A stretch of DNA of 64,000 nucleotides. Origin: Traorella massiliensis. Its GTDB lineage: Bacteria; Bacillota_I; Bacilli_A; Erysipelotrichales; Erysipelotrichaceae. This document shows, piece by piece, positions 29,470-47,795 of the stretch (positions are counted from its first letter, which is position 1; the number at the start of each line of letters is the position of its first letter). Location of the stretch: the NCBI RefSeq assembly GCF_900104665.1, contig NZ_LT629968.1, positions 1 through 64,000 of the forward strand, written 5' to 3'. The notes below the pieces were generated by a model, which made no database searches, had not been told where the DNA came from, and saw only the letters and a list, made by a program, of their open reading frames with translations. The position numbers and the translations under genes were made by a program.

Positions 29470-30054
29470 ATGAGGCTGATATATCGATATTTTATAGACG
29501 CTATTCAATCTTATAAACGTTTATTTATAATTTCGCTTATAATTGTTTTTCTCATGACCATAATGAATATGGTGCTTCCTTATGGAATTCGCTTATATTT
29601 AGATGTTCTAATAGAGAATGGAAATTGGCAGTATTTTATAATGGGACTTATATTGTTTGAGGGATATTTGTTGATATGTACACTAGTTAAAATAATCTGG
29701 TATGCTTCTTTGGATAATTTTGGTGGTCAATATATTAAGGATCTAGAACTTGAAATGGAAACAGCCATTTCTCAAACATCATTAAAGAAAATTGATGAAT
29801 TGAGTCTTAATAGAATCAAGCATATCATGTATGCCGATTTATTAGATGTTTTTAGAGTGATTGGACACCATATGCCATCTGTGTTTGGTTCGCTTTTGGT
29901 AATTGTAGCTATATTGATATTAGCTGTCGTATATGATCCACTCGTTACATTATTTCTCTTTTTTTCTTTGATCATAGGTCTTTGTATTTCTTTCTTTTCA
30001 AGAAAAACTATCGCAAAGATGGCGAGCAATACAAATAGTGCATTAAAAAAATGA
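29470..30054 (+). CDS. ABC transporter, N-terminal membrane part (split gene)
   Basis: 194 residues with about four membrane helices (near 16-36, 53-75, 135-155, 158-176), matching the first two thirds of an ABC exporter membrane domain. It stops abruptly at TGA after a run of seven A residues. The remainder of the membrane domain and the ATPase continue in the -1 frame from 30051. GGGGGGA precedes the ATG. Joined, the two products would give about 548 residues, a normal half-transporter length. This could be a frameshift mutation, a slippage or programmed frameshift site, or a genuinely split gene with ATGA coupling. Confidence 0.65.
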   Translation: MRLIYRYFIDAIQSYKRLFIISLIIVFLMTIMNMVLPYGIRLYLDVLIENGNWQYFIMGLILFEGYLLICTLVKIIWYASLDNFGGQYIKDLELEMETAISQTSLKKIDELSLNRIKHIMYADLLDVFRVIGHHMPSVFGSLLVIVAILILAVVYDPLVTLFLFFSLIIGLCISFFSRKTIAKMASNTNSALKK

Positions 30055-31115: not shown

Positions 31116-31152
31116 TAGAAATAGTTATTATAAAAAAGAAAGAAGGATTTTA

Positions 31153-31482
31153 ATGGAAGTATTTCAAATAATCAAAAAAATGGAGTTTTATGAACATGAG
31201 TTTACTTTCAAAAATAATGTATATACGTTAGAAATTGAAGGTTCTTTATATAAATTATTATGGAATCTTGATTTAATCATGTATTTTTTCTTTGCGGCTG
31301 ATCTGTTTCTTTCTATAGATAGTCTTTATCAAAGAACAGAATCTTTTTGGATGACTTTTTTGATATTGATAGCAGCCCTTGTTGTTTTTACTTATGTTAT
31401 ACGTTATATTTTTAGATTTGAGATACGAAAATATATCTGTCGTAAGAAAAAAGTTAAGATAAGTAAAAAAGAACACATATAA
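31153..31482 (+). CDS. Small membrane protein (109 aa)
   Basis: Two hydrophobic segments (about 40-55 and 68-90) and a very basic C-terminus rich in lysine. GAAGGAT precedes the ATG. It is 37 bp after the ABC transporter and ends at a strong terminator. Its last ~30 codons, the terminator and about 60 bp beyond are repeated, with small differences, at 40571-40759, where they form the remnant of a related gene. Function unknown; co-transcription with the ABC gene suggests an accessory or immunity-like role, which is inference. Confidence 0.6.
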   Translation: MEVFQIIKKMEFYEHEFTFKNNVYTLEIEGSLYKLLWNLDLIMYFFFAADLFLSIDSLYQRTESFWMTFLILIAALVVFTYVIRYIFRFEIRKYICRKKKVKISKKEHI

Positions 31483-31580
31483 AAACATTACCGATAAATA
31501 TGATTTCGGTAATGTTTTTTTAATAACATAAATGAATTATTAGGGAGAAATGTAACTTCTCATATCAGCAATTCTTTCCA
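31392..31580 (+). repeat. Direct repeat, left copy (~190 bp)
   Basis: Matches 40571-40759: the last third of a small membrane-protein gene, its terminator and ~60 bp of flanking sequence. The noncoding part is almost identical; the coding part differs at several bases, some of them amino-acid changing (for example YVIRYIF here, YVIRHIF there). The two copies bracket the PTS/GH1/decarboxylase block. Confidence 0.85.
31481..31521 (+). terminator. Terminator after small membrane-protein gene
   Basis: 13-bp stem AAAACATTACCGA / TCGGTAATGTTTT with a ten-base loop and a T7 run. The identical hairpin recurs at 40660-40700 within the right-hand direct repeat. Confidence 0.88.
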
Positions 31581-31684
31581 AAACTATATATCAGTGGATA
31601 TTCACGAGGCAAATAAATTCGTCCAAAATTAATACTGATTATATAATATATGAACTTCGCATGAAGAAATACTGTAAGAGTGAT

Positions 31685-33571
31685 TTACAATTGTGAGATA
31701 AACTCACTTAAATCTTTAGAATGAATCAACTTAGGAATTTTTGAAGTGTCGGATAAAGAGCGTATGATAGAGTCATAAACTGTTTTAAAGATTTTCTTAT
31801 CCTGTTTGGAAATGGTAATTAACAAGACGATATGAATAAGAGAATCATCCCATTGAATACCTTTTTCTGATATCAAAACCGTAAACATCGTTTTCGTATT
31901 AGAAAAATCCATCGAATGCGGAATAGCAAATGTATGAAAGAAACAGGTTGTTGATAGGCTTTCCCGGTAGAGTACTTTTTCAGTATATCCTTGTTTTTCT
32001 AAACCAAAACCAATAATTTTTTCACAAAGAAAGCGAATAGCACTTTCCTTAGTAGAATATGCATCTGTCTTAAAAAACAGATGTTCATGGAAATAAGAAG
32101 ATAATACTTTATTTTTGTTTGCAATATCTTTTTCAATCAGTTTTTCATTGATTGCATGATAGATCTTCAACTCATCAGCAACCGTATATAACGGAGAAAT
32201 GATGATGACTTTTTTGCCAATAATGTTGATTGGCTTGATTGAAATAATTAAATCTACATTGTAGTCAATATTAATATCATCTTCATCGGGAGTAACAACT
32301 GTCAGATCGATATAATCCTTATGGTACTTTAATATTTGAGCAGAAACAGTATCTATCAAATTCAGATAATCGCTGCAGATCAATAGAATTTTCACTTTTA
32401 TCAGGTCAACTTCAGAGGCATTCATCAAAAGGCCGATATGAACAGCAATGAAGCCAATTTCCGAATCAGATATCTCTATATGGAACTCATCAGCTATCTT
32501 TTTTGAAATATGGATGGAAACTTCAAAAACAAATGGACAATTTTTCTTTAAGGTATCTAAGATATCATTTGAAATTAATTGATTATTTCTAATTCTTTTG
32601 ATCATTCCATCAATATGCATGGCAAAGTTTTGCAGGGATTTGAAATAATCAATTGAAAACATATAATAGTTAAAGGTTTCTGAAAGAATCTGATCAATTC
32701 TACGAATAAAATCTGGAGCTAAAACAGGGTTTGTTTTCTCATTTGAATGTAAATATTCCTGATTTTTTATTTGTCCAGACAGTAGCAAGGCAATATAAAT
32801 GATATCTTCTTCATGTGGTTGAATATTCCAGTGTAAGGAATAACTTTTACAAATATCTTTGGAAATCTGATATTCTACAGACTGCTGATCTACATAGTTT
32901 TTCGGCAGATCTTTAATATAGATGGCAGATTTCATTCTAAATAGTGCAATTGTAATATTCAGATATAAATTAAATGAGTAGTTTTTATCAACATAATAGC
33001 CATGTCTGTTGATTGACTCATTTACAATTGTTTGTATTCTGGTGAAATTCAGTTGATCGAAATATTTTGAAATATTGTTTATGGAATTGAAAGTAGAACT
33101 TGTTTCTTCTTTGATCAGCTCCATGATCAGCTTTCTTTTGTAATATTCACTACCTTCGATAGAGATGGATCCTCGTTCACGTTTCAGCTCAAGGTTATGA
33201 TCCGCTAGTATTTTACTGATTTTTTTGATCTCTTTTTCAAGAGTGCTTACTGAAATATATAACTTGTCTGCAAGCTGATTGATATTGTATGTTTTATTTT
33301 TCTTGATCAGCCGCCGAAGAATGATATGTGTATTGTTGGTATTTTCGACAAATAGTGAAGGATCGATCTGTGATAACACAGTTGGATCGATCTTATAGCC
33401 ATACGGTGTATTTATGATTAAATTTGTTTTTTTATTAATATATGCAATATCGTTCTGAATGGTCCTTTTTGAATAATTTAAAAGCTGCGATAGTCTTTCG
33501 CAGGTAATAGTATCATTCTGATTTGTAATCAAATGGATGATTTTCAGTTGCCTATCTGTAAATTGATTCAT
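31685..33571 (-). CDS. PRD-containing PTS-linked transcriptional regulator (LicR/BglG type)
   Basis: 628 residues from MNQFTDRQ. Domain order by pattern: two N-terminal helix-turn-helix segments (about 10-60 and 85-120), two PRD modules (about 170-390), an EIIB-like fold (KILLICSDYLNL near 400) and a C-terminal fructose-type EIIA domain whose histidine is in FAIPHSMDF. Such activators are phosphorylated by HPr and EIIB and switch on the adjacent sugar PTS. It is divergent from the EIIA-EIIC-EIIB genes, 132 bp away, which are its likely targets. GGTGAAG precedes the chosen ATG. Confidence 0.88.
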   Translation of the reverse strand: MNQFTDRQLKIIHLITNQNDTITCERLSQLLNYSKRTIQNDIAYINKKTNLIINTPYGYKIDPTVLSQIDPSLFVENTNNTHIILRRLIKKNKTYNINQLADKLYISVSTLEKEIKKISKILADHNLELKRERGSISIEGSEYYKRKLIMELIKEETSSTFNSINNISKYFDQLNFTRIQTIVNESINRHGYYVDKNYSFNLYLNITIALFRMKSAIYIKDLPKNYVDQQSVEYQISKDICKSYSLHWNIQPHEEDIIYIALLLSGQIKNQEYLHSNEKTNPVLAPDFIRRIDQILSETFNYYMFSIDYFKSLQNFAMHIDGMIKRIRNNQLISNDILDTLKKNCPFVFEVSIHISKKIADEFHIEISDSEIGFIAVHIGLLMNASEVDLIKVKILLICSDYLNLIDTVSAQILKYHKDYIDLTVVTPDEDDINIDYNVDLIISIKPINIIGKKVIIISPLYTVADELKIYHAINEKLIEKDIANKNKVLSSYFHEHLFFKTDAYSTKESAIRFLCEKIIGFGLEKQGYTEKVLYRESLSTTCFFHTFAIPHSMDFSNTKTMFTVLISEKGIQWDDSLIHIVLLITISKQDKKIFKTVYDSIIRSLSDTSKIPKLIHSKDLSEFISQL

Positions 33572-33703
33572 ATTCTTCACCACTTATATTATAATCTATC
33601 CTTTTTTCATTTCAATTTTTTATTTACCAGGGGGTACGCAAAAACAAAAATGCACAACATGAGTGTTTGTTATAGAATGATGCCAAGGAGGAAAGCGATA
33701 GAT

Positions 33704-34030
33704 ATGGAAAAATCACAAGTACAGTTATTAGCGTTTCAATTGATTGCACATTCTGGAGATGCGCTAAATCACTTTAACCTTGCTTTAGACAATGCAGAGG
33801 AGGGAAAGTTTCAAGAAGCTCAAAAAGAGATTCATGAAGGAGATAAAGCGCTTGTGGCAGCACATAAAGCACAGACGGGCATGCTTACTTTCGAAGCGAG
33901 AAATGAAGTCATAGAATATAGTGTTATCATGATGCATGCCCAGGATCATCTTATGACAACGCTGAATTATGAACGGTTTGCAAAAAGGCTGATCAAGTTG
34001 TATGAAAAGATGCTTAACGAAAAAGAATAA
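33704..34030 (+). CDS. celC: PTS EIIA, lactose/cellobiose family
   Basis: 108 residues, all-helical, with the phospho-accepting histidine in SVIMMHAQDHLM (His78) and the motif VAAHKAQTGM at about 51-60. It starts at ATG 33704; AAGGAGG lies 12 bp upstream, a slightly long spacing. It heads an EIIA-EIIC-EIIB operon and transfers phosphate from HPr to the EIIB encoded two genes later. The gene order and the divergent PRD regulator are typical of cellobiose/beta-glucoside systems. Confidence 0.85.
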   Translation: MEKSQVQLLAFQLIAHSGDALNHFNLALDNAEEGKFQEAQKEIHEGDKALVAAHKAQTGMLTFEARNEVIEYSVIMMHAQDHLMTTLNYERFAKRLIKLYEKMLNEKE

Positions 34031-34041
34031 AGGAGGAAAAA

Positions 34042-35355
34042 ATGAATAAACTACAAAATTTACTAGAAAAGAAGCTTCTCCCATTAGCTGGTATGATGCA
34101 GAGCAATAAGATATTAAGCTCCATATCCAATGGTCTGATGGCTGGAGTTCCATTTATGATTATTGGATCGTTGACGCTGGTAATCAGTACACCACCGGTC
34201 GATTACACTACTTTAGATCCGGGAATTATCTATACGTTTATCAAGGGATGGACAGATTTAGCTAACTCGCTTGGTAATATTCTGACAATGGTCAGCTTTG
34301 CCAGCATGAATTGCTTTGCTCTGATTTCAAGTGCAGCTATTGGTTATTATTTGGGACAGAAGCTTGGTATCAAGGGATTGTCAGCAATGGTAAACGCATT
34401 GGTTGCATTTCTGGTTACTGCTACATTTACATATGACGGTGAATTAATTCAGGGCTTTACAAACTATGGAGGACAAGGTCTTCTGAGTTGTATCATCGTA
34501 TCAGTATTATCTACTTTGGCATTGTCTTGGCTTATCAATCATAATGTCGGAAAGATCAAAATTGGTGGTGCAGGAGTGCCTCCCGCTATTACCCAAAACT
34601 TTGTTACATTAGTACCATGTGCCATTATTGTATTTTCTTGGGCAATCATAAATACGCTATGCATCCAGATTGCCGGGGTAGCATTTCCAAATGTCATTGA
34701 TTTAGTCATGTCACCTTTAGTATCCATTCTGCTATCTCCTGCTGGAACGATTATTTATTGTCTTCTTTGCAGCTTAGGATGGTGGTTCGGTATTCATGAC
34801 AACGCCTTCTCAGGTTTCTCACCATTCCTTTGGACAGCATTTTATGCCAATCAGGCAGCTTATGCAGCAGGAACGAACATTTATGAGCTGCCATACATCG
34901 TAAATTATGGTATGTATTATACATTTGTAAATATTGGTGGTTGTGGAGCAACCTTTGGTCTTGCGGTGTTATTATTTTTATTCTCTAAATCCAAACAGTG
35001 TAAGACAGTTGGTAAATTAGGAATCCTTCCAGCATTTTTCAATATCAATGAACCAATTATCTTTGGTGTTCCGCTGATGATGAATCCGGTATTTATCATT
35101 CCTATGGCGATTACAACAAGTGTTAACTTCATTATCACATATGTTGCAACTGCATTGAAGCTGGTGCCGCATGTCGTTTCCTTTGCCGGATGGAATTTGT
35201 GGACACCAATTGGTGGCTTTTTAGCAACATTGAGCTGGACAGGGTCGGTTTTGGCAATCGTTCTTATTATAGTAGATATGCTCATCTACTATCCATTCTT
35301 TAAAACTTATGATAATCAGAAGTTGAAAGAAGAAGCGAACGATCCAAATCAATAA
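34042..35355 (+). CDS. celB: PTS EIIC, cellobiose/lactose family
   Basis: 437-residue integral membrane permease of the lactose/cellobiose EIIC family, with about ten hydrophobic segments. Family-typical stretches include the N-terminal LLEKKLLPLAG, GWWFGIHDNAF near 250 and FFNINEPIIFGVP around 330. It binds and translocates the sugar while EIIB phosphorylates it. GGAGG lies 7 bp before the ATG. It is 11 bp after EIIA. The sugar is likely a beta-glucoside because a GH1 gene follows beyond an IS insertion. Confidence 0.9.
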   Translation: MNKLQNLLEKKLLPLAGMMQSNKILSSISNGLMAGVPFMIIGSLTLVISTPPVDYTTLDPGIIYTFIKGWTDLANSLGNILTMVSFASMNCFALISSAAIGYYLGQKLGIKGLSAMVNALVAFLVTATFTYDGELIQGFTNYGGQGLLSCIIVSVLSTLALSWLINHNVGKIKIGGAGVPPAITQNFVTLVPCAIIVFSWAIINTLCIQIAGVAFPNVIDLVMSPLVSILLSPAGTIIYCLLCSLGWWFGIHDNAFSGFSPFLWTAFYANQAAYAAGTNIYELPYIVNYGMYYTFVNIGGCGATFGLAVLLFLFSKSKQCKTVGKLGILPAFFNINEPIIFGVPLMMNPVFIIPMAITTSVNFIITYVATALKLVPHVVSFAGWNLWTPIGGFLATLSWTGSVLAIVLIIVDMLIYYPFFKTYDNQKLKEEANDPNQ

Positions 35356-35406
35356 GGTGTTTTGATGATTTTTCCATAAATATATTATTAATCGCGTATA
35401 AAATTT

Positions 35407-35727
35407 ATGAAACTTAATTTATTATTGATCTGCAGTTTAGGAATGTCCAGTAGCATATTGGAGATGAAAATCCGTGAAGAGGCGGAAAAGCGAGGCTATG
35501 ATTGTAAAGTTCATGCAATCTCTGTTCAAGAAACATCAGAATATGCAGGAGAGCAATATGATGCAGTACTTATTGCTCCACAAATTGTTTATTTGACAAA
35601 AGAAATCCAAAAAGATATTCACCAAGATACAGTCTTAGTGAATATGGCTGTTACTGACTATGGCATGATCAAGGCAGACAATATTTTGGATGCGACAATT
35701 CAGGCAATTGAAGAACATAAACGATAG
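35407..35727 (+). CDS. celA: PTS EIIB, lactose/cellobiose family
   Basis: 106 residues with the phosphocysteine loop LLICSLGMSSSIL (Cys9) and the second motif VLIAPQIVYL at about 56-65. The start has no clear Shine-Dalgarno sequence; TATAAA (35397-35402) lies just four bases before the ATG, and 51 bp separate it from EIIC, so it may have its own weak promoter or use low-efficiency reinitiation. It completes the three-component PTS. An IS1182-like element begins about 100 bp downstream. Confidence 0.85.
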   Translation: MKLNLLLICSLGMSSSILEMKIREEAEKRGYDCKVHAISVQETSEYAGEQYDAVLIAPQIVYLTKEIQKDIHQDTVLVNMAVTDYGMIKADNILDATIQAIEEHKR

Positions 35728-35830
35728 AAAAACAAAGGTGTAGTTAGAGAGAAGGAGTAAGGACGAAAAGTAGTACTTAATCGAAAAGAAAAAGAAGAGA
35801 TTTTAAATAAAAAAGTTAAATAAAAAAAAT

Positions 35831-37491
35831 GAGCGCACTAAAAACAAGTGCACAAATGAAATAAAATAAATTTAGCGAAAATCAGGTTTCATTTTTAATC
35901 CAAGCATCAAGATGAATATTGATGGCGGCAAAGATTGAAAAGAAAGCTGCTTTGGAGTCTTCACGAATTCTCATCTGATGAAGATGATAGTCATTGAGAA
36001 TTCTATTATTGATTCTCTCAGTACAAGTTCTATTTTTGTATAGTTCTTTCCATTTATCTGTTTTGTAAGGAACAGGGCCAAAAAGACGCATATCAAGCGA
36101 ATCGTTAATGTAAACAGTTCTACCATATGGAGAAGGAGAACATGTATCTGCATGTGGACAAGAATCAATCAATCCCATTTTTAGAGGACAACGGAATTTT
36201 CTTCTTTGCCTTTGATAGTCGTAGCCACAGTGATACATTTCAACACCACAATCACAAATTGGTTTGCCGTTTTCACTAATAGAATCAAAGTGTTTATAAA
36301 TATTTTTACCCAATTTACGTTGATTGAAATCAATGATTGGGATAATATTATGGTGACGCAGAAATTGGTAAACGGCAGAAGAATCGCTTGCGGAATCGAA
36401 ACACATGAATTTTGGAGAGAGTTCAGGGTTAATATCAAGGAAACGAGCGGTAGAGGAAATGGAAGACAGAGCATCATGACGAGAAGCTTTCTCTAAATCG
36501 ATAAAGACGGGAAGGTCAGTATGGATTAGAGGGTTATGATAAGAAATGTTATAGAGAGTATAACCGAAGTAATACATTCCAAGATCACTGTCCCAACCAA
36601 AATCTGCGTTTTTAGCGCTATAACGATGAGTGTTTAAAATATTGTCATCTTTAATGATTTGATGACCAAAAGGAGAAGCATGAATATGAAAAGCAGAACC
36701 ATCACCAGAAAAGACAAGATTGTAGGAATCAATAAAGCCCATGTCATGAGAAGGAATGACAGCAATAGCGTTAAAAAGTAATTGAAGAGTATAAATCATA
36801 CGATCACGGTCAAAAACAGAACCATCATGAGTGTAATTATCGAAAAGAGAATAAGTATCATCATTAGAGAAGTTCATTAATTTTTCACCTTTCTTAGGTT
36901 TAGAAGAATTAGATTTATTCGTAAAAAGGCCTTTAGGAAGAAGATCGTTATGGTGAGAAAAAGAATGAGTGATACGGTTAATGAAATCGTAATGAGAAGA
37001 ATGGTTAGGAACATTCCAAGAACCGATAAGATATTGAAGAAGCCTATCGTGATGAACTTCATAACACCAATTTTTAAGAGAAGTAAAACCAAGATGAAGC
37101 ATCAAAACGACAGAACGCAAATAGATAGCAGGATCGTTAGCGGGACGACCCAAAGGAGAATATAAAGGAAAGATGATATCGGCGACAAGGTCGACATCAA
37201 GTTTAGACAACTTATGAATAGCAGACTTAAAATTAGGAGAAGAAAGTCTGAAAAGATCAGAAGTTGAAAGAGAAGACTTTTCTGTCTTAAGAAATTCTTT
37301 GTAATCTTGAGACGAAGAGAAATAAATTAACATTGAAGATCACCACCTACTTACTACAGAAAGGCGAGCAAAGCGAGCCCGCAACGAGGGCGATTTGTCA
37401 AGCAAAAAGTGAAAAAAGTTGGGGGGATTTCAAAAAAACGGCAATTAAAAAAGAGCGTAAACAAGCCGTTAAAATGTTTTCGACCACGCTC
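35831..37491. mobile_element. IS1182-like insertion sequence (tentative ends)
   Basis: A single intact transposase gene on the minus strand, flanked by imperfect terminal repeats: GAGCGCACTAAAAACA at the left and, read inward from the right, GAGCGTGGTCGAAAACA. About 1.66 kb between these points fits the IS1182 family. Both ends can also form short hairpins. A GC-rich stretch with direct GCGAGC repeats lies upstream of the transposase start. No unambiguous target duplication was found. The element sits between the PTS EIIB gene and the GH1 gene. Confidence 0.6.
35882..37333 (-). CDS. DDE transposase, IS1182-like
   Basis: 483 residues, intact. An N-terminal helical domain with the family-like GRPANDPAIYLRSVVLMLHLGF (about 58-80) is followed by a DDE core: FSGDGSAFHIHA (first Asp), MCFDSASDS (second Asp) and RTCTERINNRI (Glu). 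A cysteine/histidine-rich insertion (CDCGVEMYHCGYD, CPHADTC) may bind zinc. The assignment to IS1182 rather than another IS4-like group is by pattern only. Confidence 0.8.
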   Translation of the reverse strand: MLIYFSSSQDYKEFLKTEKSSLSTSDLFRLSSPNFKSAIHKLSKLDVDLVADIIFPLYSPLGRPANDPAIYLRSVVLMLHLGFTSLKNWCYEVHHDRLLQYLIGSWNVPNHSSHYDFINRITHSFSHHNDLLPKGLFTNKSNSSKPKKGEKLMNFSNDDTYSLFDNYTHDGSVFDRDRMIYTLQLLFNAIAVIPSHDMGFIDSYNLVFSGDGSAFHIHASPFGHQIIKDDNILNTHRYSAKNADFGWDSDLGMYYFGYTLYNISYHNPLIHTDLPVFIDLEKASRHDALSSISSTARFLDINPELSPKFMCFDSASDSSAVYQFLRHHNIIPIIDFNQRKLGKNIYKHFDSISENGKPICDCGVEMYHCGYDYQRQRRKFRCPLKMGLIDSCPHADTCSPSPYGRTVYINDSLDMRLFGPVPYKTDKWKELYKNRTCTERINNRILNDYHLHQMRIREDSKAAFFSIFAAINIHLDAWIKNET

Positions 37492-37494
37492 TAA

Positions 37495-38919
<1,425 letters not shown>

Positions 38920-39061
38920 TTAAACTTATATATTAGTTATCGGCATTATGGTATTGTAGATAGTGGAGAAGTATAAGCTTAATGTACTTATATGGATTTG
39001 TATCATTTTCGATTCCATCAGGAAGGATAATTTGATTGAGCTTGAAGGAGGAGGCTTTGAA

Positions 39062-40483
39062 ATGGAAGGCATAACAAAAGAAGAGCTGTATCGTTCTGTA
39101 CAGACAATAGTAAAGACGTACATAGATTTTTACGATACTTTACGTGAAAAGAAGGCGGTGACTATTGCTAGTGATGACGTCATTCAAAAATTGAGAAATA
39201 TCGGTTTTTCAAAAGAAGGGCGCGAGTTGGATCAAGTGATTCACGAGATGATTGAAACTATTTATGCGAATCAGGCAATTATGCAGCACCCGCGGTTTTT
39301 TGCCTTTGTACCAAGTCCGGCTTCTCCGTTATCATGGATTGGTGATGTCTTGACAGATTCTTACAATCCACATGCAGGGACATGGTTAGAAAGTTCTAGT
39401 GCAAGCTGCATTGAACAGGAAACAATCAAATGGTTATGTCAAAAAGCAGGATATCCGAAAACGGCAGGAGGATTATTTGTTTCGGGTGGCTCAATTGCAA
39501 ATCTGACAGCTCTTGTTGTTGCACGTCATGCAAAACTTTCAGAAGATATGTACTTCAATGGGGTTGCATACCTTTCTCAGCAGACACATTTTTCCGCCGC
39601 TAAGGCACTGCGTATTATGGGACTGACTACAGAACAGATTCGCATCATTCCTTGTGACGATCAGTTACGAATGGACACTCGTAGTCTGGAAAAGGCAATC
39701 TTGCAGGATCTTGAAGCAGGAAAAAAACCATTTGTAGTAGTTGCAACGGCAGGAACGACGAATACAGGATGCATCGACCCGCTTCATCCGATTGCAGATA
39801 TTTGTGATAGGTATGATTTATGGTTCCATGTTGATGGAGCCTATGGTGCCTCTGTCTTAGTTTCAAATGAGTATCATCATCTGTTAGATGGGATTTCTCG
39901 TGCAGATAGTATTACATGGGATGCACACAAATGGTTATTTCAAACGTACGCATGCAGTATGATCCTTTTTAAAAATTCACATGATCTTGCCAATTGTTTC
40001 AGCTCTAATCCTGAATATCTGAAGGATGCCGTGGCAGAAAATGATGAAGTGAATTATTGGGAGTGGGGAATTGAACTCACTCGGCCAGCTCGCAGTTTAA
40101 AGTTGTGGCTGACCTTACAAACGTTAGGAACGGATAAGCTTAGTGAAATGGTTACCCATGGTATCCAATATGCTCAGCGTTTAGAAGAAATAATTAAAGA
40201 GAAACCAAATTGGGAAATTGTAACTTCGGCACAACTGGCTATCATTAATTTTCGTTACGCACCTAAATCATTAAGTGAACATTCTTGTGATCAGATCAAT
40301 GAGGCAATTTCACATAAAATGACAGAAAATGGGTTTGCTTGTGTATTGACTACCCAATTAAAGGGAAAAACGGTTTTAAGGATTTGTTCAATTCACCCAG
40401 AAACAACAGAAAAAGATTTAAAGGAAACGGTTGAACTTTTAAATAAGTATGCAATTGAAGCGAGTGAGGAAATACTGTCATAA
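39062..40483 (+). CDS. Group II PLP-dependent aromatic amino acid decarboxylase (tryptophan-decarboxylase-like)
   Basis: 473 residues from ATG 39062, chosen for GGAGGAGG just upstream (a reading from 38963 has no ribosome site). PLP site: His176 in QTHFSAAKAL stacks on the ring, Asp258 in FHVDGAYGAS, and Lys290 in SITWDAHKWLFQTYAC forms the Schiff base. The catalytic-loop side and the substrate region (HPRFFAFVPSPASP, ELTRPARSLKLWLTLQ) resemble, from memory, the Ruminococcus gnavus tryptophan decarboxylase. Products would be tryptamine or another arylamine plus CO2. Tyrosine, phenylalanine or other substrates remain possible. No amine antiporter is adjacent. Confidence 0.82.
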   Translation: MEGITKEELYRSVQTIVKTYIDFYDTLREKKAVTIASDDVIQKLRNIGFSKEGRELDQVIHEMIETIYANQAIMQHPRFFAFVPSPASPLSWIGDVLTDSYNPHAGTWLESSSASCIEQETIKWLCQKAGYPKTAGGLFVSGGSIANLTALVVARHAKLSEDMYFNGVAYLSQQTHFSAAKALRIMGLTTEQIRIIPCDDQLRMDTRSLEKAILQDLEAGKKPFVVVATAGTTNTGCIDPLHPIADICDRYDLWFHVDGAYGASVLVSNEYHHLLDGISRADSITWDAHKWLFQTYACSMILFKNSHDLANCFSSNPEYLKDAVAENDEVNYWEWGIELTRPARSLKLWLTLQTLGTDKLSEMVTHGIQYAQRLEEIIKEKPNWEIVTSAQLAIINFRYAPKSLSEHSCDQINEAISHKMTENGFACVLTTQLKGKTVLRICSIHPETTEKDLKETVELLNKYAIEASEEILS

Positions 40484-40570
40484 TCAAAAGAGTACTTCTA
40501 TAAATAATTATAATCAGATAGTTGACTTTATTTATATGATTGGTATATTTGTTGTTAAAGCTTCTATACT

Positions 40571-40759
40571 TACGTAATACGTCATATTTTCAGATATGAA
40601 ATACGTAAATATATCTGTCGTAAGAAAAAAATTAAAATAAGTAAAAAAGAACACATATAAAAACATTACCGATAAATATGATTTCGGTAATGTTTTTTTA
40701 ATAACATAAATGAATTATTAGGGAGAAATGTAACTTCTCATATCAGCAGTTCTTCTCAA
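40571..40759 (+). repeat. Direct repeat, right copy (~190 bp), with gene remnant
   Basis: Right-hand counterpart of 31392-31580. It carries the last ~30 codons of a paralogue of the 109-aa membrane protein (ending RKKKIKISKKEHI, stop), preceded in frame by a stop codon, then the same terminator and downstream bases. The remainder of the gene is missing. Apart from this, interval 40484-40824 holds only the tRNA terminator. Confidence 0.85.
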
Positions 40760-40789
40760 AATCTTCTCAACGGACCTCTTGAAAATGCA

Positions 40790-40814
40790 AAAAAAGCCCT
40801 AAATATAGGGCTTT
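40790..40814 (-). terminator. Terminator of the tRNA-Asn/tRNA-Glu operon
   Basis: Minus-strand stem AAAGCCCT / AGGGCTTT with a six-base loop, then TTTT, just downstream of tRNA-Glu. Confidence 0.85.
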
Positions 40815-40824
40815 CTGAGTAATT

Positions 40825-40900
40825 TGGTGACTCGTACGGGATTCGAACCCGTGAATGCATGCGTGAAAGGCATGTGAGTTAACCGTTTCTCCAACGAGCC
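40825..40900 (-). tRNA. tRNA-Glu (anticodon TTC)
   Basis: 76 nt on the minus strand. Acceptor stem GGCTCGT/ACGAGTC with one G-U pair, encoded CCA. Anticodon stem CATGC/GCATG with loop CTTTCAC. T-arm CGGG TTCGAAT CCCG. It follows tRNA-Asn by 5 nt. Confidence 0.95.
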
Positions 40901-40905
40901 ATCAA

Positions 40906-40981
40906 TGGCGCCTAAAACAGGACTCGAACCTGTGACCTGCCGGTTAACAGCCGGATGCTCTACCTACTGAGCTATTTAGGC
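40906..40981 (-). tRNA. tRNA-Asn (anticodon GTT)
   Basis: 76 nt on the minus strand. Acceptor stem GCCTAAA/TTTAGGC, discriminator G, encoded CCA. Anticodon loop CTGTTAA between CCGG/CCGG stem halves. T-arm ACAGG TTCGAGT CCTGT. It is the first gene of a two-tRNA transcript. Confidence 0.95.
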
Positions 40982-41092
40982 AAGTGCTTAATTATAATAG
41001 CATGACACTTAAGATAATGCAAGTACTTTTTTTAAAAAATATTGAATTGATTGAAATGGGATATTATAATAACACTACTGGAAGGAAAAAAT

Positions 41093-42805
41093 ATGAAATT
41101 ATTGCTGCGATATTTAAGAAACTATATAAAAGAAACGATACTTGGGCCCTTTTTTAAATTACTGGAAGCAGGTCTTGAGCTTTTTATACCTTTAATCATT
41201 GCGAAAATGATTGATGAAGGTATTGTTCAGCAAAATCAGACATTGATCTGGTTATGTGCATTCTGTCTTGCACTATTAGCTTTAATTGGCTGTATCAGTG
41301 CTATCAGCGCTCAATATTTTAGTGCTAAGGCTGCTGTTGGAATGAGCGAGGAAATGCGACGTGATTTATTTGCTCATATTGAAAGCTTTGGCTATACAGA
41401 AATTGATCAAGTAGGTACAAGTACTTTGATTACACGTTTGACCAATGATATCAACCAGGTACAAAACGGTGTTAATTTATTCTTACGTCTATTTTTACGT
41501 TCGCCGTTTATTGTATTTGGTTCTATGCTGATGGCTTTTACGATAAGTCCCCGATTAGCAATCATATTTGTATTGACAATTCTAATATTATTTCTAGTTG
41601 TGATTTTTATTATGGTTGTGAGTATTCCATTAGTAAAGAAAACAGCTGCTCTTATTGAAAAAATGACCCAGCTGGTTTCAGAGAATTTAAGTGGTGTTCG
41701 TGTTATTCGTGCTTTTCATATCGAAAAAGAACAGGCAATGGAATTTGAAACACAAAATAAGAATTATTTTGATGCGAGTATATTGGTAGGAAAAATCAAT
41801 GCTTTTTTAAATCCAGGTACTACATTGATATTAAATTTAGCTATTTTGATATTGATATATAAAGGAAGCTTTCAGGTATTTGAAGGCGGAATTACACAAG
41901 GACAGCTTGTAGCTTTAGTTTCTTATATGTCGAGTATTTTGATTGAACTGATTAAATTAGTAAATCTTGTTTTAAATTTAACTAAAGCAATTGCCAGTGC
42001 TTCACGTATCGAATCAATATTTGAAATGCAGACAAGCTATTTAAATCATCCTCAAAAAATATCTTATATCGATGATTGTATTTATTACTTTGATCATGTT
42101 TCTTTCAGATATCAAAATGATCAAATGGATACGATAGAAAATGTATCTTTCCGTATTCCTAAGCATGTCCGTATAGGTATTATCGGGGGAACAGGAAGTG
42201 GGAAAAGCACACTGGTTCATCTCATGGGCCGCTTTTATGATGTGAGCGATGGCAGGATCTTATATAAGGGAGCAGATATTAAAGATGTTGATTTAGAAAA
42301 ACTTCATCAGGAAGTTGTGCTGGTTCCCCAACAAGCTGTTTTGTTTAAGGGAACGATTGCGCAAAATTTAAAATGGGGAAAGAAGGATGCCAGTGAAGAA
42401 GAAATGATGGAAGCCTGTCGGAATGCTCAAATTGCAGATTTTGTAGAAGAAAAGGGATTGGATTATGAGATTGCTCAAAACGGATTGAATTTAAGCGGTG
42501 GTCAGCGTCAGCGTCTTACGATTGCCCGTGCGTTGATTGCTAAGGCAGAGGTATTGATTTTAGATGCGAGCAGCAGTGCTTTAGATTACGCAACAGAGGC
42601 AGCCTTAAGAAAGGCGATTGCTCAAAATTATGATTGCACATTAATTACGATTTCTCAGCGTATATCCTCATTAGCAGATTGCGACATGATCTTGGTAATG
42701 GATGAAGGAAGACTGGCTGGTATGGGAACGCATGATGAGTTGATGAAAAATTGTGCTATTTATCAAGAAATTAATGCCTCACAGATACGGGAGGTGAAAG
42801 CATGA
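41093..42805 (+). CDS. Heterodimeric ABC multidrug-type exporter, degenerate half
   Basis: 570 residues from the ATG at 41093 (GGAAGG upstream; TATAAT at 41065). Exporter membrane domain at about 10-300, then an ATPase with Walker A GGTGSGKST and signature LSGGQRQR. The Walker B end reads LILDASSSALD, with Ala where the catalytic Glu belongs, and the H-loop has Gln (ISQRIS). It therefore supplies the degenerate site in a BmrC/LmrC-like heterodimer. The stop overlaps the next gene by 4 bp. Exported compound unknown. Confidence 0.88.
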   Translation: MKLLLRYLRNYIKETILGPFFKLLEAGLELFIPLIIAKMIDEGIVQQNQTLIWLCAFCLALLALIGCISAISAQYFSAKAAVGMSEEMRRDLFAHIESFGYTEIDQVGTSTLITRLTNDINQVQNGVNLFLRLFLRSPFIVFGSMLMAFTISPRLAIIFVLTILILFLVVIFIMVVSIPLVKKTAALIEKMTQLVSENLSGVRVIRAFHIEKEQAMEFETQNKNYFDASILVGKINAFLNPGTTLILNLAILILIYKGSFQVFEGGITQGQLVALVSYMSSILIELIKLVNLVLNLTKAIASASRIESIFEMQTSYLNHPQKISYIDDCIYYFDHVSFRYQNDQMDTIENVSFRIPKHVRIGIIGGTGSGKSTLVHLMGRFYDVSDGRILYKGADIKDVDLEKLHQEVVLVPQQAVLFKGTIAQNLKWGKKDASEEEMMEACRNAQIADFVEEKGLDYEIAQNGLNLSGGQRQRLTIARALIAKAEVLILDASSSALDYATEAALRKAIAQNYDCTLITISQRISSLADCDMILVMDEGRLAGMGTHDELMKNCAIYQEINASQIREVKA

Positions 42806-44544
42806 ATCGAAAAACTGTCATGAAAAGAGTACTTTTCTATATTCAACAGGATAAAAAATTAGTAGTTGCATCTTTTGTTTGTGCTTTTATCAGTGTTGTT
42901 ACAACGTTATATTTACCAATTTGTATTGGTGAAGCGATAGATGATGCAATTGGAGTGGTAAATGTTGATTTTGATGCAGTTATTCAAGTCTTGATACGCA
43001 TGGGAATCGTCCTTCTTGTAAATGTTTGTGTGACATGGCTGATGAATCGGATCAATAATAAATTGACATATCATGTTTCCTATAGAATTCGTAAGGATGC
43101 GGTTGAACATATCAGCAAATGTCCGATTTCTTATCTTGACAATCATGATCAAGGGGATCTTCTCAGTCGTATTTTAAATGATGTGGAAATTCTCTGTGAT
43201 GGTCTTTTAATGGGTTTTACGCAGTTTTTCACAGGTATTTTAAGTATTTTTATTACTTTGTTCATCATGCTTCAGATTGATCTGCGAATGGGTATCTTAG
43301 TTTTATTGATTACTCCATTATCCCTTGTGATGGCGACTTTTATTTCCAAAAAGACACATCGGCTTTTTTTGATACAATCAAAAAACCGTGGGAAAATGAG
43401 TGCATTTATCAATGAAAGAATTTCTCATCATAAAGTAAGTATTGCTTATGAACACCAGCAGGAAAATATAGATGAGTTTCATGCGATGAGCGAAGAATTA
43501 AAAGAGAGCTCGATGAAAGCTATTTTCTATTCATCATTGACAAATCCATGTACTCGTTTTGTTAATTCAATCGTCTATGCTTCTGTTGCACTGATGGGAT
43601 CGCTGATCGTTATTGGCGGTACTATGAGCGTAGGGCAGTTAACGATTTATCTAAATTATGCCAATCAGTATACAAAGCCGTTTAATGAAATTACAAGCGT
43701 TATCAGTGAGTTGCAGAATGCTTTGGCATGTGCACAGCGGGTATTTGAATTTATTGATTCTCCTGTGGAAAAATTAGATGGCCCAACAGCGAATGAACTT
43801 GAAAAGGTTAAGGGGAAGGTTGAGTTACGTCATGTGTCTTTTTCTTATAACAAATCAAAACCTTTAATTAGTGATTTTAATCTATGTGTACAACCTGGAC
43901 AACGTATTGCAATCGTAGGGCCTACAGGGTGTGGGAAGACAACCTTGATCAATCTTTTGATGCGTTTCTATGAAATTGATCAGGGAGATATTTTGTTAGA
44001 TGATGTGAACTATCGGGATATTACCGTAAAATCATTACGTAGTCATTTTGGCATGGTCTTACAGGATACATGGATCAAGAATGCAACGATTCGGGAGAAT
44101 ATTACTTTGCATAAAAATATTAGTGATGAAAAACTGATAGAAGCCAGTCGTAAGACCAAGGCCCATACATTTATTCAGCGTTTGCCTAAAGGATATGACA
44201 CGATGTTGAAAGATGTTAGCTCAAGTCTTTCAATTGGACAAAAACAGTTATTATGTATTACTCGAGTCATGGTACAAGATCCTAAGATTCTCATACTGGA
44301 TGAAGCTACTTCGAATATTGACACTTTAACCGAATTGCAGGTTCAAAATGCGTTTCAGGAATTGATGAAAGATAAAACAAGTTTTATTGTTGCTCATCGC
44401 TTGAGTACGATTCAAAATGCGGATCGTATCCTTGTCATGAAAGAAGGAAAAGTGATCGAACAGGGAACCCATGAAGGACTATTGAAGAAAAATGGCTTTT
44501 ATGCGACATTGTATCAGTCGCAGTTTTCAAATCAAATGAGTTGA
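42802..44544 (+). CDS. Heterodimeric ABC multidrug-type exporter, catalytic half
   Basis: 580 residues. Six-helix membrane domain at about 15-320, then an ATPase with Walker A GPTGCGKTT, Walker B ILILDEATSNID (catalytic Glu present) and H-loop VAHRLS. Its signature is LSIGQKQ rather than LSGGQ, as expected for the partner that completes the degenerate site in BmrD/LmrD-type exporters. Coupled by an ATGA overlap to the preceding half-transporter. No dedicated regulator is adjacent. Confidence 0.88.
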   Translation: MNRKTVMKRVLFYIQQDKKLVVASFVCAFISVVTTLYLPICIGEAIDDAIGVVNVDFDAVIQVLIRMGIVLLVNVCVTWLMNRINNKLTYHVSYRIRKDAVEHISKCPISYLDNHDQGDLLSRILNDVEILCDGLLMGFTQFFTGILSIFITLFIMLQIDLRMGILVLLITPLSLVMATFISKKTHRLFLIQSKNRGKMSAFINERISHHKVSIAYEHQQENIDEFHAMSEELKESSMKAIFYSSLTNPCTRFVNSIVYASVALMGSLIVIGGTMSVGQLTIYLNYANQYTKPFNEITSVISELQNALACAQRVFEFIDSPVEKLDGPTANELEKVKGKVELRHVSFSYNKSKPLISDFNLCVQPGQRIAIVGPTGCGKTTLINLLMRFYEIDQGDILLDDVNYRDITVKSLRSHFGMVLQDTWIKNATIRENITLHKNISDEKLIEASRKTKAHTFIQRLPKGYDTMLKDVSSSLSIGQKQLLCITRVMVQDPKILILDEATSNIDTLTELQVQNAFQELMKDKTSFIVAHRLSTIQNADRILVMKEGKVIEQGTHEGLLKKNGFYATLYQSQFSNQMS

Positions 44545-44589
44545 CTTAGAAGAAAAAAATGCATATCCTAACATTAGGGAGGAAATAAG

Positions 44590-45489
44590 ATGAACATAAA
44601 AAAAAGTATCCTTGAAACGATTGGGCATACTCCTTTGATAGCGTTAAATGAGCACCTGTTTGCCAAGGTAGAATCATTTAATCCTGGAGGCAGTGTAAAG
44701 GATCGTATTGCATATAAGATGATCCAGCAGGCTCTTGATGAAGGAAGAATTGATCAAAACACCGTAATTATTGAACCAACAAGTGGAAATACAGGCGTAG
44801 GGTTAGCAATGGTATGTGCAGCCTTGCATATGAAGTGTGTCATCGTTTTACCGGATTCCATGTCTTTAGAAAGAAGAAAGCTGATTCAGGCATATGGTGC
44901 TGAACTGGTATTAACGGAAGGTGCCTTGGGAATGAAGGGGGCCATTGCGGAAGCTATGCATCTTCATGATGAAATTAGTAATTCATTTATTCCTCAGCAG
45001 TTTGAAAATAGTGATAATCCTTTGGCACATTATGAATCAACAGCCATTGAAATATTTGAAGATACAGAAGGTCAGATCGATATATTTGTAGCCGGTATTG
45101 GTACAGGCGGCACGATTAGCGGGGTTGGACGATATTTGAAGGAACATAAAAAAGATGTTGAAATAGTAGGCGTAGAACCATCAGAAAGTGCTGTAATCAC
45201 AACAGGTGAAGCCGGTAAGCATAAGATTCAAGGAATTGGGGCTGGCTTTATTCCAAAAAATCTAGATCAGAATGTGGTTGATCGAGTGGATACTATCAGT
45301 AGTGAAGAAGCTTATAGCGGTGCGAATGAGTTAGCGCAGGAATATGGTATTTTATGTGGTATTTCTGCTGGAGCAGCTTATTGTGAAGCTAAAAAACTTC
45401 AAGCAAAAGAAGAAAATAAAAATAAAAACATCGTCGTTTTGCTTCCAGATACGGGAGAGCGTTATTTATCGACAGATCTATATAAATAA
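44590..45489 (+). CDS. cysK: Cysteine synthase (O-acetylserine sulfhydrylase)
   Basis: 299 residues of the PLP fold-type II family. The PLP lysine is Lys37 in NPGGSVKDR; the substrate loop PTSGNTG and the phosphate loop GTGGTISG are intact. It makes cysteine from O-acetylserine and sulfide. GGGAGG lies before the ATG. The gene is monocistronic, 45 bp after the ABC exporter pair, and closed by a hairpin terminator. A related beta-synthase activity cannot be excluded from sequence alone. Confidence 0.92.
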   Translation: MNIKKSILETIGHTPLIALNEHLFAKVESFNPGGSVKDRIAYKMIQQALDEGRIDQNTVIIEPTSGNTGVGLAMVCAALHMKCVIVLPDSMSLERRKLIQAYGAELVLTEGALGMKGAIAEAMHLHDEISNSFIPQQFENSDNPLAHYESTAIEIFEDTEGQIDIFVAGIGTGGTISGVGRYLKEHKKDVEIVGVEPSESAVITTGEAGKHKIQGIGAGFIPKNLDQNVVDRVDTISSEEAYSGANELAQEYGILCGISAGAAYCEAKKLQAKEENKNKNIVVLLPDTGERYLSTDLYK

Positions 45490-45513
45490 AAAAACTACAT
45501 TATGTAGTTTTTT
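45488..45513. terminator. Bidirectional terminator after cysK
   Basis: Stem AAAACTACAT / ATGTAGTTTT with A- and T-runs on both sides. It serves cysK (+) and the small membrane-protein gene (-). Confidence 0.85.
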
Positions 45514-45716
45514 TAATAGATTGGTATGCAGGCAAGTATAAGCGCAATGGCTAATATAATATATCCTGTATATAAAAGCTTTTTTTCATCGTGTGTATAA
45601 GCATTGTCAGGAGTTTTTAGTTGTCTTTTTGAAAAACGTACCCTGACGATGCATACGATAGCGATACCGGCAAAAGCGGCAATATAAGTAATGATTTCTT
45701 TGATTGAGATTGGCAT
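45513..45716 (-). CDS. Small two-helix membrane protein (67 aa)
   Basis: Two hydrophobic helices (about 9-25 and 48-66) joined by a basic loop (RVRFSKRQLK). AAAGGAAG lies 6 bp before the ATG, and TATAAT is placed upstream on the minus strand, so the gene looks real despite its size. Not recognised. It is convergent with cysK and stands alone. Confidence 0.6.
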   Translation of the reverse strand: MPISIKEIITYIAAFAGIAIVCIVRVRFSKRQLKTPDNAYTHDEKKLLYTGYIILAIALILACIPIY

Positions 45717-45782
45717 AAATACTTCCTTTCATATTATGTAATAACATAAGTATTATAACTTGAATGGTTATGTTCAGCAAGT

Positions 45783-45860
45783 AAAAAAACGGCTGAATAT
45801 GTGATGGGGAGGAAGAATCAGCCGTTTTTATAAAACGAGGTTTTTACACCTAATTGTTTC
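45783..45860 (-). ncRNA. Candidate small RNA with C-rich terminator loop
   Basis: Minus-strand promoter TTCTCA (45895-45890), 17-bp spacer, TATAAT (45872-45867). About 60 bases downstream comes a perfect 12-bp terminator stem AAAAACGGCTGA/TCAGCCGTTTTT whose 21-base loop reads TTCTTCCTCCCCATCACATAT. No ORF starts in the transcript. Its loop could pair with Shine-Dalgarno sequences, as C-rich loops of known Firmicute small RNAs do. No gene on either strand would otherwise need a terminator here. Expression is not proven. Confidence 0.5.
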
Positions 45861-45915
45861 ATGTTTATTATAGAGATAAGAAGATGATTTGAGAAAAAAT
45901 TAAAAGAAAAATAAT

Positions 45916-45968
45916 TGTGGTAAAAATTCAAATATTCAAAGGTGAATACACAAAAAATTACCACATTA
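45916..45968. promoter_or_regulatory. Operator candidates upstream of the uronate operon
   Basis: Inverted TGTGGTAA (45916-45923) and TTACCACA (45958-45965), 42 bp between centres (about four helical turns). The second is part of AAAAATTACCACATTA (45953-45968), whose complement is identical over 16 bp to 53642-53657, at the promoter of the opposing uronate operon. A TATAAT for the plus-strand genes lies at 46008-46013. Confidence 0.6.
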
Positions 45969-46039
45969 CATATCCTTATTTTATTAGTACAAAACTAAAA
46001 AAAAAGATATAATGAATATGAAAGGAAGGACAATGAATT

Positions 46040-46822
46040 ATGATGAATTACATAAAAGATAAAACAACTGTTGAATTAACAAATCGTAGTGATCTGTATC
46101 CAGGTATGATGCTTTATTCTTATCTGGTAAGACAGAAAAAAGGCGAAACGAAAACGTATGATGATAGTGAGAAGGAAACACTGATCGTTTTGCAGGAAGG
46201 AAAGCTTACATTGAGCTATGAAGGAAAGAGTGCAACGATCGAACGTGTCAATGTATTTGATGATGCGCCAGTGGGACTTCATGTGTGCAAAGGTGTACAT
46301 GTAGAGGTAAGTGCTGATACTGATAGTGAATATCTGTTGTTTATGACAGAAAATGAAAAAGAATTTGCGACTACTTTATTTACAAAAGAAAACGTGGTGG
46401 TTGTTGACCGTGGTGCTGGACAGTGGAATGAATGTGCTACTCGTAATGTAAGAACGATGGTAGACTATAAGATCAACCCACTGAGCAATATGGCTTTTGG
46501 GGAAACTGTCAACTATCCAGGTAAATGGTCTACTTTTATTCCTCATTTACATGATCAGCCAGAATTATATTATTATCGTTTTAACCGTCCTGAGGGATTT
46601 GGTGCAAGCTTCTATGGAGATAATGTTTATCAGGTAAAAGATTATAGCTATATCTGTGTAACTGAAAAATTGCCTCATCCACAGGTAACGGCACCGGGAT
46701 ATGCTATGTATTATTTCTGGATCATCCGTCACTTTGATGATAATCCTTGGACAGGTGCTGAAAATGTGAAGGAGCACGAATGGCTGTTAGATCCTAACTG
46801 CAAGATCTGGCCAGAAAAGTAG
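46040..46822 (+). CDS. IolB/KduI-family sugar-acid isomerase
   Basis: A 260-residue double-cupin protein of the KduI/IolB family. The metal site lies in the second cupin: FIPHLHDQPELYYYRF (His, His, Glu) and a later His in RHFDDNPW. Family members isomerise 5-keto-4-deoxyuronate (KduI) or 5-deoxyglucuronate (IolB), and E. coli KduI has been linked to galacturonate/glucuronate conversion. Here it opens a KDG-pathway operon and there is no uxaC, so a hexuronate isomerase role is plausible. AAGGAAGG lies 10 bp before ATG 46040; ATG 46043 is also possible. Confidence 0.8.
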   Translation: MMNYIKDKTTVELTNRSDLYPGMMLYSYLVRQKKGETKTYDDSEKETLIVLQEGKLTLSYEGKSATIERVNVFDDAPVGLHVCKGVHVEVSADTDSEYLLFMTENEKEFATTLFTKENVVVVDRGAGQWNECATRNVRTMVDYKINPLSNMAFGETVNYPGKWSTFIPHLHDQPELYYYRFNRPEGFGASFYGDNVYQVKDYSYICVTEKLPHPQVTAPGYAMYYFWIIRHFDDNPWTGAENVKEHEWLLDPNCKIWPEK

Positions 46823-46830
46823 GAGGAAAC

Positions 46831-47787
46831 ATGAACGAGATATTAGATAAAATCAGTAGAATTGGGATCGTGCCGGTCATTAAAATTGATCGTGTTGAAG
46901 ATGCTCTTCCATTAGGAAAAGCACTTTGTGAAGGCGGACTCCCAGTAGCTGAGGTAACATTCAGAACAGAGCATGCGAAAAAGGCAATGCAGATCATGAA
47001 TAAAGAATTGCCACAGATGCTTCTTGGTGCTGGAACTGTGCTAACGAAAGAACAGGTAGATGATGCGTTAGAAGCAGGTGCAAAATTTATCGTTTCTCCG
47101 GGATTGAACCCTGAAATCGTTCGTTATTGTATTGAGAAAAAGGTGCCTGTCGTACCTGGATGTGCGAATGCGAGCGACATTGAAGCTGCTTTATCTTGTG
47201 GCTTGACGACTGTAAAATTCTTCCCTGCAGAACCGCTAGGGGGATTAAAAATGATCAAAGCATTGGCAGCACCATATGTCAACGTAAACTTTATGCCGAC
47301 AGGCGGCATTAAGGAAAGCAACATCGTAGAATATTTAGATTATGATCGTATCGTTGCTTGTGGTGGTACCTGGATGGTGGATGCGAAGGCTATCAAAGAG
47401 GGTAATTTTGATCGTATCAAAGAATTAACACAGAATGCTGTTAAGACCATGTTAGGACTTGAATTGGCACATGTGGGTGTTAATGCTGATGAAACGAGTG
47501 CTGAAGATGTTGCAGGTGAATTTGCATCTTTGCTTCAGTGTGAAACAGAACCTCATTCTAAATCTTGCTTTGCAGGTAAAACCATTGAAGTGATGAAGAA
47601 TAAGTTAGGTACACATGGTCATATTGCCTATAAGGTCAACAGTGTTGAAAGAGCTGTTCGTTATTATGAAAGCTTAGGTTATACATTTGATGAAAGCTCT
47701 AAGGCATATAATGATGATCATTCATTAAAAGCTATTTATTTTGAAAAAGAAATTGGTGGATTTAAGATTCATTTATTGAAGAAATAG
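46831..47787 (+). CDS. eda: KDPG/KHG aldolase with C-terminal VOC domain
   Basis: 318 residues, about 100 more than a standard Eda. Residues 1-205 are the class I aldolase: Glu41 and Arg45 in VAEVTFRTE, and Schiff-base Lys129 in TTVKFFPAEPLGG. Residues ~212-318 form a glyoxalase/VOC-like unit (LAHVGVNADETSAED and HIAYKVNSVERAVRYYESLGY). The aldolase cleaves KDPG to pyruvate and glyceraldehyde-3-phosphate. The VOC part's function is unknown; the same fusion occurs in some other Firmicute aldolases as far as I recall. Located 8 bp after the isomerase gene, GGAGG before ATG. Confidence 0.88.
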   Translation: MNEILDKISRIGIVPVIKIDRVEDALPLGKALCEGGLPVAEVTFRTEHAKKAMQIMNKELPQMLLGAGTVLTKEQVDDALEAGAKFIVSPGLNPEIVRYCIEKKVPVVPGCANASDIEAALSCGLTTVKFFPAEPLGGLKMIKALAAPYVNVNFMPTGGIKESNIVEYLDYDRIVACGGTWMVDAKAIKEGNFDRIKELTQNAVKTMLGLELAHVGVNADETSAEDVAGEFASLLQCETEPHSKSCFAGKTIEVMKNKLGTHGHIAYKVNSVERAVRYYESLGYTFDESSKAYNDDHSLKAIYFEKEIGGFKIHLLKK

Positions 47788-47795
47788 GAGAGAAT

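Follow-up and report, generated by a model that had tools for sequence, protein, structure and literature searches.

A probable aromatic L-amino-acid decarboxylase in a repeat-bounded beta-glucoside PTS block of Traorella massiliensis

A gene resembling the tryptophan decarboxylase (TDC) of Ruminococcus gnavus lies, in Traorella massiliensis, within a sugar-use block flanked by direct repeats, and this locus raises two questions: which amines would the enzyme produce, and how did its gene come to be there? The window, i.e. the whole stretch of 64,000 nucleotides that was analysed, had been the subject of a preliminary description that called the enzyme tryptophan-decarboxylase-like and saw in the repeats a sign of transfer. 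The reading that we favour, with a probability of roughly 0.8, is that the gene encodes an aromatic L-amino-acid decarboxylase (probably acting on tryptophan and phenylalanine, perhaps on tyrosine) that entered the lineage in a beta-glucoside PTS block by homologous recombination. The features of the locus are the following.

31153..31482, plus strand: ORF for a small membrane protein of 109 aa, whose tail is duplicated; split over two contig ends in the congener G003
31389..31583, plus strand: upstream copy of the 195-bp direct repeat, made of the tail of the preceding ORF and its terminator
31685..33583, minus strand: PRD/EIIA-domain transcription regulator, divergent from the PTS genes (PF00874, PF00359, PF08279, PF05043)
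33704..34030, plus strand: PTS IIA, lactose/cellobiose type (PF02255, 77.3 bits; start picked by its ribosome site)
34042..35355, plus strand: PTS IIC, lactose/cellobiose family (PF02378; TIGR00410, 260.9 bits for a cut-off of 236)
35407..35727, plus strand: PTS IIB, lactose/cellobiose type (PF02302, 52.8 bits)
35755..37491: insertion sequence (IS) of 1737 bp, ends GAG...CTC, with 9 full and 1 partial copies in the genome
35882..37333, minus strand: transposase of the IS (DUF772; weak IS1182-like match, 63 bits for a cut-off of 270)
37513..38919, plus strand: GH1 glycosidase, 6-phospho-beta-glucosidase-like (PF00232, 399.8 bits), 143 nt upstream of the decarboxylase gene
39062..40483, plus strand: PLP-dependent aromatic L-amino-acid decarboxylase, R. 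gnavus TDC-like, 473 aa (Lys290 in DAHK; pocket differences Glu110 and Ala323)
40567..40761, plus strand: downstream repeat copy, in which the tail of the small membrane-protein ORF recurs in truncated form with its terminator
40825..40981, minus strand: tRNA-Glu and tRNA-Asn adjoining the right end of the block, a pair also present in congeners

The decarboxylase frame is uninterrupted from the ATG at 39062 to the stop at 40483. A longer start is possible at an in-frame GTG (38963), and the ATG was chosen because it is the start suited by a strong ribosome site, AAGGAGGAGG, located a few bases upstream of it. The protein is a group II PLP-dependent amino-acid decarboxylase (Pfam PF00282, 253.6 bits for a cut-off of 27), the single match to this family in its own 2.6-Mb genome. 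Its residues 287-290, DAHK, agree with the [DN][AP]HK motif of group II and include the PLP lysine, aligned with K306 of 4obu; the available text of PMC12484125 gives DAHK as the motif of the aromatic/tryptophan group.

When all PDB sequences were searched, the top match was 4obu (523 bits, E 4.6e-156, residues 10-468), the R. gnavus enzyme RUMGNA_01526 (4obu/4obv), which shares about 49% identity with the window protein over its whole length. The runner-up, a plant enzyme, reaches 245 bits, less than half of that score, and the glutamate decarboxylases of the PDB at most 170 bits. The proposed kinship with R. gnavus TDC is thereby borne out, as are the three TDC-like stretches quoted in its favour, all of them found in the protein and agreeing with the R. 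gnavus chain at 8/9, 14/16 and 15/16 letters. A closer relationship to glutamate or other decarboxylases, named beforehand as the outcome that would count against it, was not observed: the glutamate decarboxylase model TIGR01788 gives 28.4 bits, below its cut-off of 380.4, and the model of the enterococcal tyrosine decarboxylases, proteins of about 620 aa, gives 53.9 bits for a cut-off of 905.3 (TIGR03811). The best-scoring NCBIfam model is that of L-2,4-diaminobutyrate decarboxylase (NF052646, 248 bits for a cut-off of 900), and no NCBIfam equivalog reached its own cut-off in the profile search. A predicted structure (mean pLDDT 81.1, pTM 0.83, low in the catalytic loop 314-340) retrieved chains of R. 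gnavus TDC at Foldseek ranks 1-4, with 48-49% identity and E values down to 5.3e-45. As TM-scores to these chains are only about 0.76 and the rmsd is high, the sequence match outweighs the fold match as evidence. The gene thus almost certainly encodes a real and complete enzyme of a known tryptamine-making kind. In this fold-type I decarboxylase, Lys290 would hold PLP as an internal aldimine, as in relatives; an aromatic amino acid would displace it from PLP, and loss of CO2 would yield the arylamine.

The active-site positions that have been mutated in R. gnavus TDC (F98, V99, H120, L126, L336, L339, W349, L355 and T356; PMC9448781), together with Y312, added by PMC9643649, make up a published set of ten. 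Alignment to the R. gnavus enzyme, the check that the preliminary description had proposed, gives a divided answer: eight of the ten positions are kept (F98, V99, H120, Y312, L336, W349, L355 and T356, in R. gnavus numbering), while Leu126 and Leu339 are replaced by Glu110 and Ala323, respectively. Just beyond this set, position 348 is a threonine in R. gnavus TDC and a tyrosine, Tyr332, in the window enzyme, where it aligns with the loop tyrosine of the plant chain 6eei. This loop tyrosine is important for catalysis in plant and animal enzymes. Among the 27 sequences of our tree, glutamine at 126 with alanine at 339 is found in the enzymes of Holdemania, Paenibacillus, Variovorax and genome G087, and glutamate at 126 recurs in one sequence only (L070). 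The window enzyme thus belongs to a group with a pocket slightly unlike that of R. gnavus.

A guide to the likely products comes from expressed homologues. According to PMC9553188, expression in E. coli of the enzymes of R. gnavus, Blautia hansenii, Tyzzerella nexilis and Clostridium asparagiforme yielded aromatic amines in every case, tryptamine among them, with preferences that vary among tryptamine, phenethylamine and tyramine; tyramine is the favoured product of the C. asparagiforme enzyme, and phenethylamine exceeds tryptamine when the R. gnavus enzyme is expressed in E. coli. A review (PMC12607914) states that the R. gnavus and C. sporogenes enzymes yield mainly tryptamine, alongside phenethylamine and tyramine. 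With two pocket positions changed, a branch apart from that of R. gnavus in the tree and homologues of broad activity, the tryptophan specificity implied by the first name of the enzyme is not established, even though the kinship stands. The best name would be aromatic L-amino-acid decarboxylase, a preference for tryptophan being unproven. Tryptamine and phenethylamine are the likeliest of the predicted products and tyramine a possible one. We infer the decarboxylase activity, its substrate range and the release of the amines from these comparisons. No gene for an amine exporter or exchanger occurs among the ORFs of the block, and, in the available text of PMC12993505 and PMC12607914, a role in acid defence is unsupported for relatives of the enzyme.

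Two other substrate ranges have to be weighed against this one. The main substrate might be phenylalanine or tyrosine, or a derivative such as DOPA or 5-hydroxytryptophan, tryptophan being minor, a proposal to which we give appreciable weight while holding it somewhat short of an even chance. It draws on the replacement of both leucines and on the varied preferences of the homologues (PMC9553188). However, Trp349, His120, Phe98, Leu355 and Thr356 are all retained, and in the available text of PMC9448781, which concerns tryptophan analogues only, mutations at 126 of R. gnavus TDC had modest effects and L339V kept broad activity. It is far less probable that the enzyme is a group II decarboxylase of a non-aromatic substrate, e.g. 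a basic amino acid bound by Glu110. A glutamate in the pocket and the first rank of the diaminobutyrate model would be in keeping with such a role, but the score of this model lies far under its cut-off, the aromatic R. gnavus enzyme is the nearest solved relative by a wide margin and eight of the ten pocket residues are common to both.

Relatives of the enzyme are few among the genomes searched. The tree comprises 27 rows, after omission of L057, a second entry of the Holdemania gene, and of L059, whose frame is interrupted by a stop, and its Cloacimonadota and Gemmatimonadota rows, on long branches, serve as outgroups only. The window enzyme is sister to that of Holdemania filiformis (L002, 66% identity, support 100/98), and R. 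gnavus TDC pairs with the enzyme of G018, a genome of the Erysipelotrichaceae, as is that of the window (support 100/100); the junction of these two branches lacks resolution in this tree. Matches at E <= 0.001 were found in 18 of the 315 genomes of the order, of which two (G122 and G060) are weak, at 27-28% identity. Near full-length relatives, at about 40% identity or more, thus occur in 16 of the 315 genomes, the window's own included, so that the earlier remark that few gut bacteria have this enzyme is fair. In a sample of the class, 16 of 395 genomes match, 5 of them (own included) at 44% identity or more and the others weakly. The enzyme is missing from all four congeners, two of these genomes being less than 85% complete. 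The genus Holdemania was predicted in silico as a tryptamine producer (PMC6930238, in its available text); therefore a member in another genus of the same family is unsurprising. Beyond this prediction, our literature search found nothing on a decarboxylase of this type in the Erysipelotrichaceae. Among other relatives, L059 (in genome G078, 48% identity) carries an in-frame TAG and may be decaying, and in G087 and G018 (loci L079 and L080) a gene for a LysR-type regulator, recognized from the first residues of the proteins, is oriented divergently to that of the decarboxylase, an arrangement not shared by the window gene.

The block between the two repeats spans about 9 kb and contains the PRD regulator, the lactose/cellobiose-type PTS, the IS, the GH1 gene and the decarboxylase gene. 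The GH1 protein scores up to 514 bits with NCBIfam 6-phospho-beta-glucosidase models, in every case under the cut-off. The closest relative of the PRD regulator among the 315 genomes of the order is only 45% identical, so the donor of the PTS part was not found. GH1 directly adjoins the decarboxylase both in the window and in G087, with a different gene order, and it was absent beside the decarboxylase relatives of Paenibacillus and the other loci examined. As GH1 matches are abundant (11, 24 and 63 per genome in three genomes checked), the closeness of GH1 to the decarboxylase is weak evidence for an operon link.

The direct repeats reported at the ends of the block are real: the two copies, of 195 nt, are 94% identical, with an identical core of about 110 nt, and, save for a reverse-strand self-match of the terminator, the repeat is found nowhere else in the genome. 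Each copy consists of the last codons of the 109-residue ORF followed by its terminator, and the downstream copy leads into tRNA-Glu and tRNA-Asn. The congener G003 offers a site without the block. Its contig C72 carries, in order, the gene tail, the repeat, tRNA-Glu, tRNA-Asn, an ABC pair (89-91% amino-acid identity) and cysK (93%), and residues 1-48 of the small membrane-protein gene form the end of its contig C104; the gap between the two contigs measures about a dozen bases by window coordinates and falls within the small gene, away from the junction. At 10 of the 11 positions that distinguish the window copies within the gene tail, G003 has the letter of the downstream copy, and this agreement, with the identical core, indicates that one gene tail is present in the window in two versions. 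Upstream of the block, at 29470-31115, an ABC exporter gene apparently consists of two overlapping frames, of 194 and 354 aa, and is possibly a frameshifted pseudogene; it was not found in contig C104, so the left side of the block is also variable. Next to it, 24726-29384 encodes a large surface protein of 1552 aa; inspection by eye shows numerous repeats of collagen-adhesin-type domains, and the C-terminus bears a membrane anchor.

Transfer of the block into the lineage is plausible. The suggestion of the preliminary description holds in so far as G003 lacks the block at this site and all four congeners lack the enzyme; it does not hold for the repeats as mobility ends. These were considered as attachment sites or IS ends and rejected, being a duplicated gene tail with its terminator. 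The block does not qualify as an integrative mobile element, as no integrase is present among its ORFs (ORF list and profile search) and its repeats are not attachment sites, nor as a composite transposon, the single IS copy (35755-37491) lying inside the block and none at its ends. The decarboxylase gene would have entered the lineage within the beta-glucoside PTS block, between the small membrane-protein gene and the tRNA-Glu/tRNA-Asn pair. The duplicated tail at both ends suggests homologous recombination through a single crossover in the tail and terminator rather than the action of an integrase; a crossover of incoming DNA carrying its own version of the tail, or a duplication followed by divergence, would each fit the repeats.

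Several sources and signatures were sought. The composition of the decarboxylase gene is not foreign (GC3 0.316, compared with 0.289 +/- 0.046 across 21 genes of the window that lie outside the block, its GC being also within the spread), and the hint given by the 1-kb profile (41% at 39000-40000) is not upheld by gene-level GC or GC3. The 28000-48000 part of the window has no near DNA match among 72,556 plasmids. At the protein level, 417 plasmid records match the decarboxylase, all at less than 60% identity; relatives can therefore be plasmid-borne, though the source was not found. The best of these matches, at 52%, is from Paraclostridium bifermentans, whose plasmids (139-146 kb; L091, NZ_CP094934.1) carry a 52-56% identical decarboxylase annotated merely as an aminotransferase. 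A phage origin was set aside, as 3 of 50,697 phage records match, all at 32% identity or less.

The IS inside the block has its own history. Its copies in the genome are about 100% identical, and 7 of the 9 full copies have matching 5-bp flanks. The window copy is flanked by AGAAG and TAAAT, i.e. without a 5-bp target duplication; a rearrangement may therefore have brought its two sides together, and joint arrival of the PTS genes with the GH1-decarboxylase pair need not be assumed. The IS now lies between these two groups of genes. All nine full copies have, in constant orientation, a Shine-Dalgarno-like GGAG or GGGG 11 or 12 nt beyond the IS end, the background being that AAGG[AG]G occurs in about 0.9% of random 22-nt stretches of the window. 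Relatives of the IS in three other genomes have a G-rich run starting 9-12 nt away in 7 of 8 cases, the exception being a tandem copy (L172); L178 was left out of these relatives because it is cut by a contig end. The loci of the comparison as a whole are L130-L138 and L170-L177. The IS thus appears to target ribosome-binding sites by inserting just upstream of Shine-Dalgarno sequences. Our literature search found nothing obvious on an IS with such targets, and this preference is perhaps a more novel point than the decarboxylase itself. A second and different transposase-like ORF, recognized by eye, lies at 12637-13890 (GC 42%, GC3 0.44, above its neighbours).

The absence of the block from G003 could also have come about the other way round: were the block ancestral here, its deletion in G003 would make a recent transfer unneeded. 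Recombination between the 195-bp direct repeats would give exactly the layout of G003, and the composition of the block is like that of the remainder of the window. We nevertheless consider this course of events unlikely, while keeping it in view, because the enzyme is missing from all four congeners, the PTS-regulator DNA of the block was not found in these same genomes and the nearest relative of the decarboxylase belongs to another genus. Entry by homologous recombination remains our preferred reading. A further proposal concerns expression. The decarboxylase gene might be intact and silent, cut off from the PTS promoter by the IS, which lies between the PTS genes and GH1, and a simple scan found no promoter-like match in the 143-nt gap before the gene. 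Frame and ribosome site are, however, intact and such promoter scans are weak evidence, which makes silence decidedly improbable. More speculative still in its scope, and scarcely better placed, is the idea that the enzymes of Holdemania, Paenibacillus, G087 and the window, which have Gln or Glu at position 126, Ala at 339 and Tyr at 348, represent a separate specificity class of gut arylamine-forming decarboxylases, and that a beta-glucoside PTS/GH1 module has, in this lineage, taken over its expression, whereby amine output would track the use of plant glucosides.

Tryptamine and phenethylamine of bacterial origin act on receptors of the host, and links to insulin resistance and irritable bowel have been published (PMC10435514, in its available text). 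If our reading is true, a further genus would make these amines, by means of an insert missing in its congeners, and the trait could not be read from a species or genus name alone. The decarboxylase extends a known family and leaves ideas of what is possible unchanged.

The nearest characterized system, R. gnavus TDC (RUMGNA_01526), resembles the window enzyme in its length, fold, DAHK motif, eight of ten pocket residues and stand-alone gene devoid of a dedicated exchanger. It differs by Leu126, Leu339 and Thr348, where the window enzyme has Glu110, Ala323 and Tyr332, by its well-supported separate branch and by its gene context, the window gene following GH1 in a PTS block. The homologue of Holdemania filiformis, from the same family, shares alanine at 339 and tyrosine at 348, whereas it has a glutamine at 126 instead of a glutamate and its gene lies outside any PTS-GH1 block, with GH1 genes within about 5 kb. 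The staphylococcal SadA is described in the available text of PMC12607914 as homologous to the R. gnavus enzyme, stand-alone and broad in its products, and, unlike the window gene's setting, as devoid of flanking mobile elements. Finally, the tyrosine decarboxylases of enterococci and lactic acid bacteria (TDC/TyrP operon) likewise carry out the PLP-dependent decarboxylation of aromatic amino acids, but they are proteins of about 620 aa with a DPHK motif, encoded in an operon with a tyrosyl-tRNA synthetase and an exchanger (PMC12607914 and PMC12484125, in their available text).
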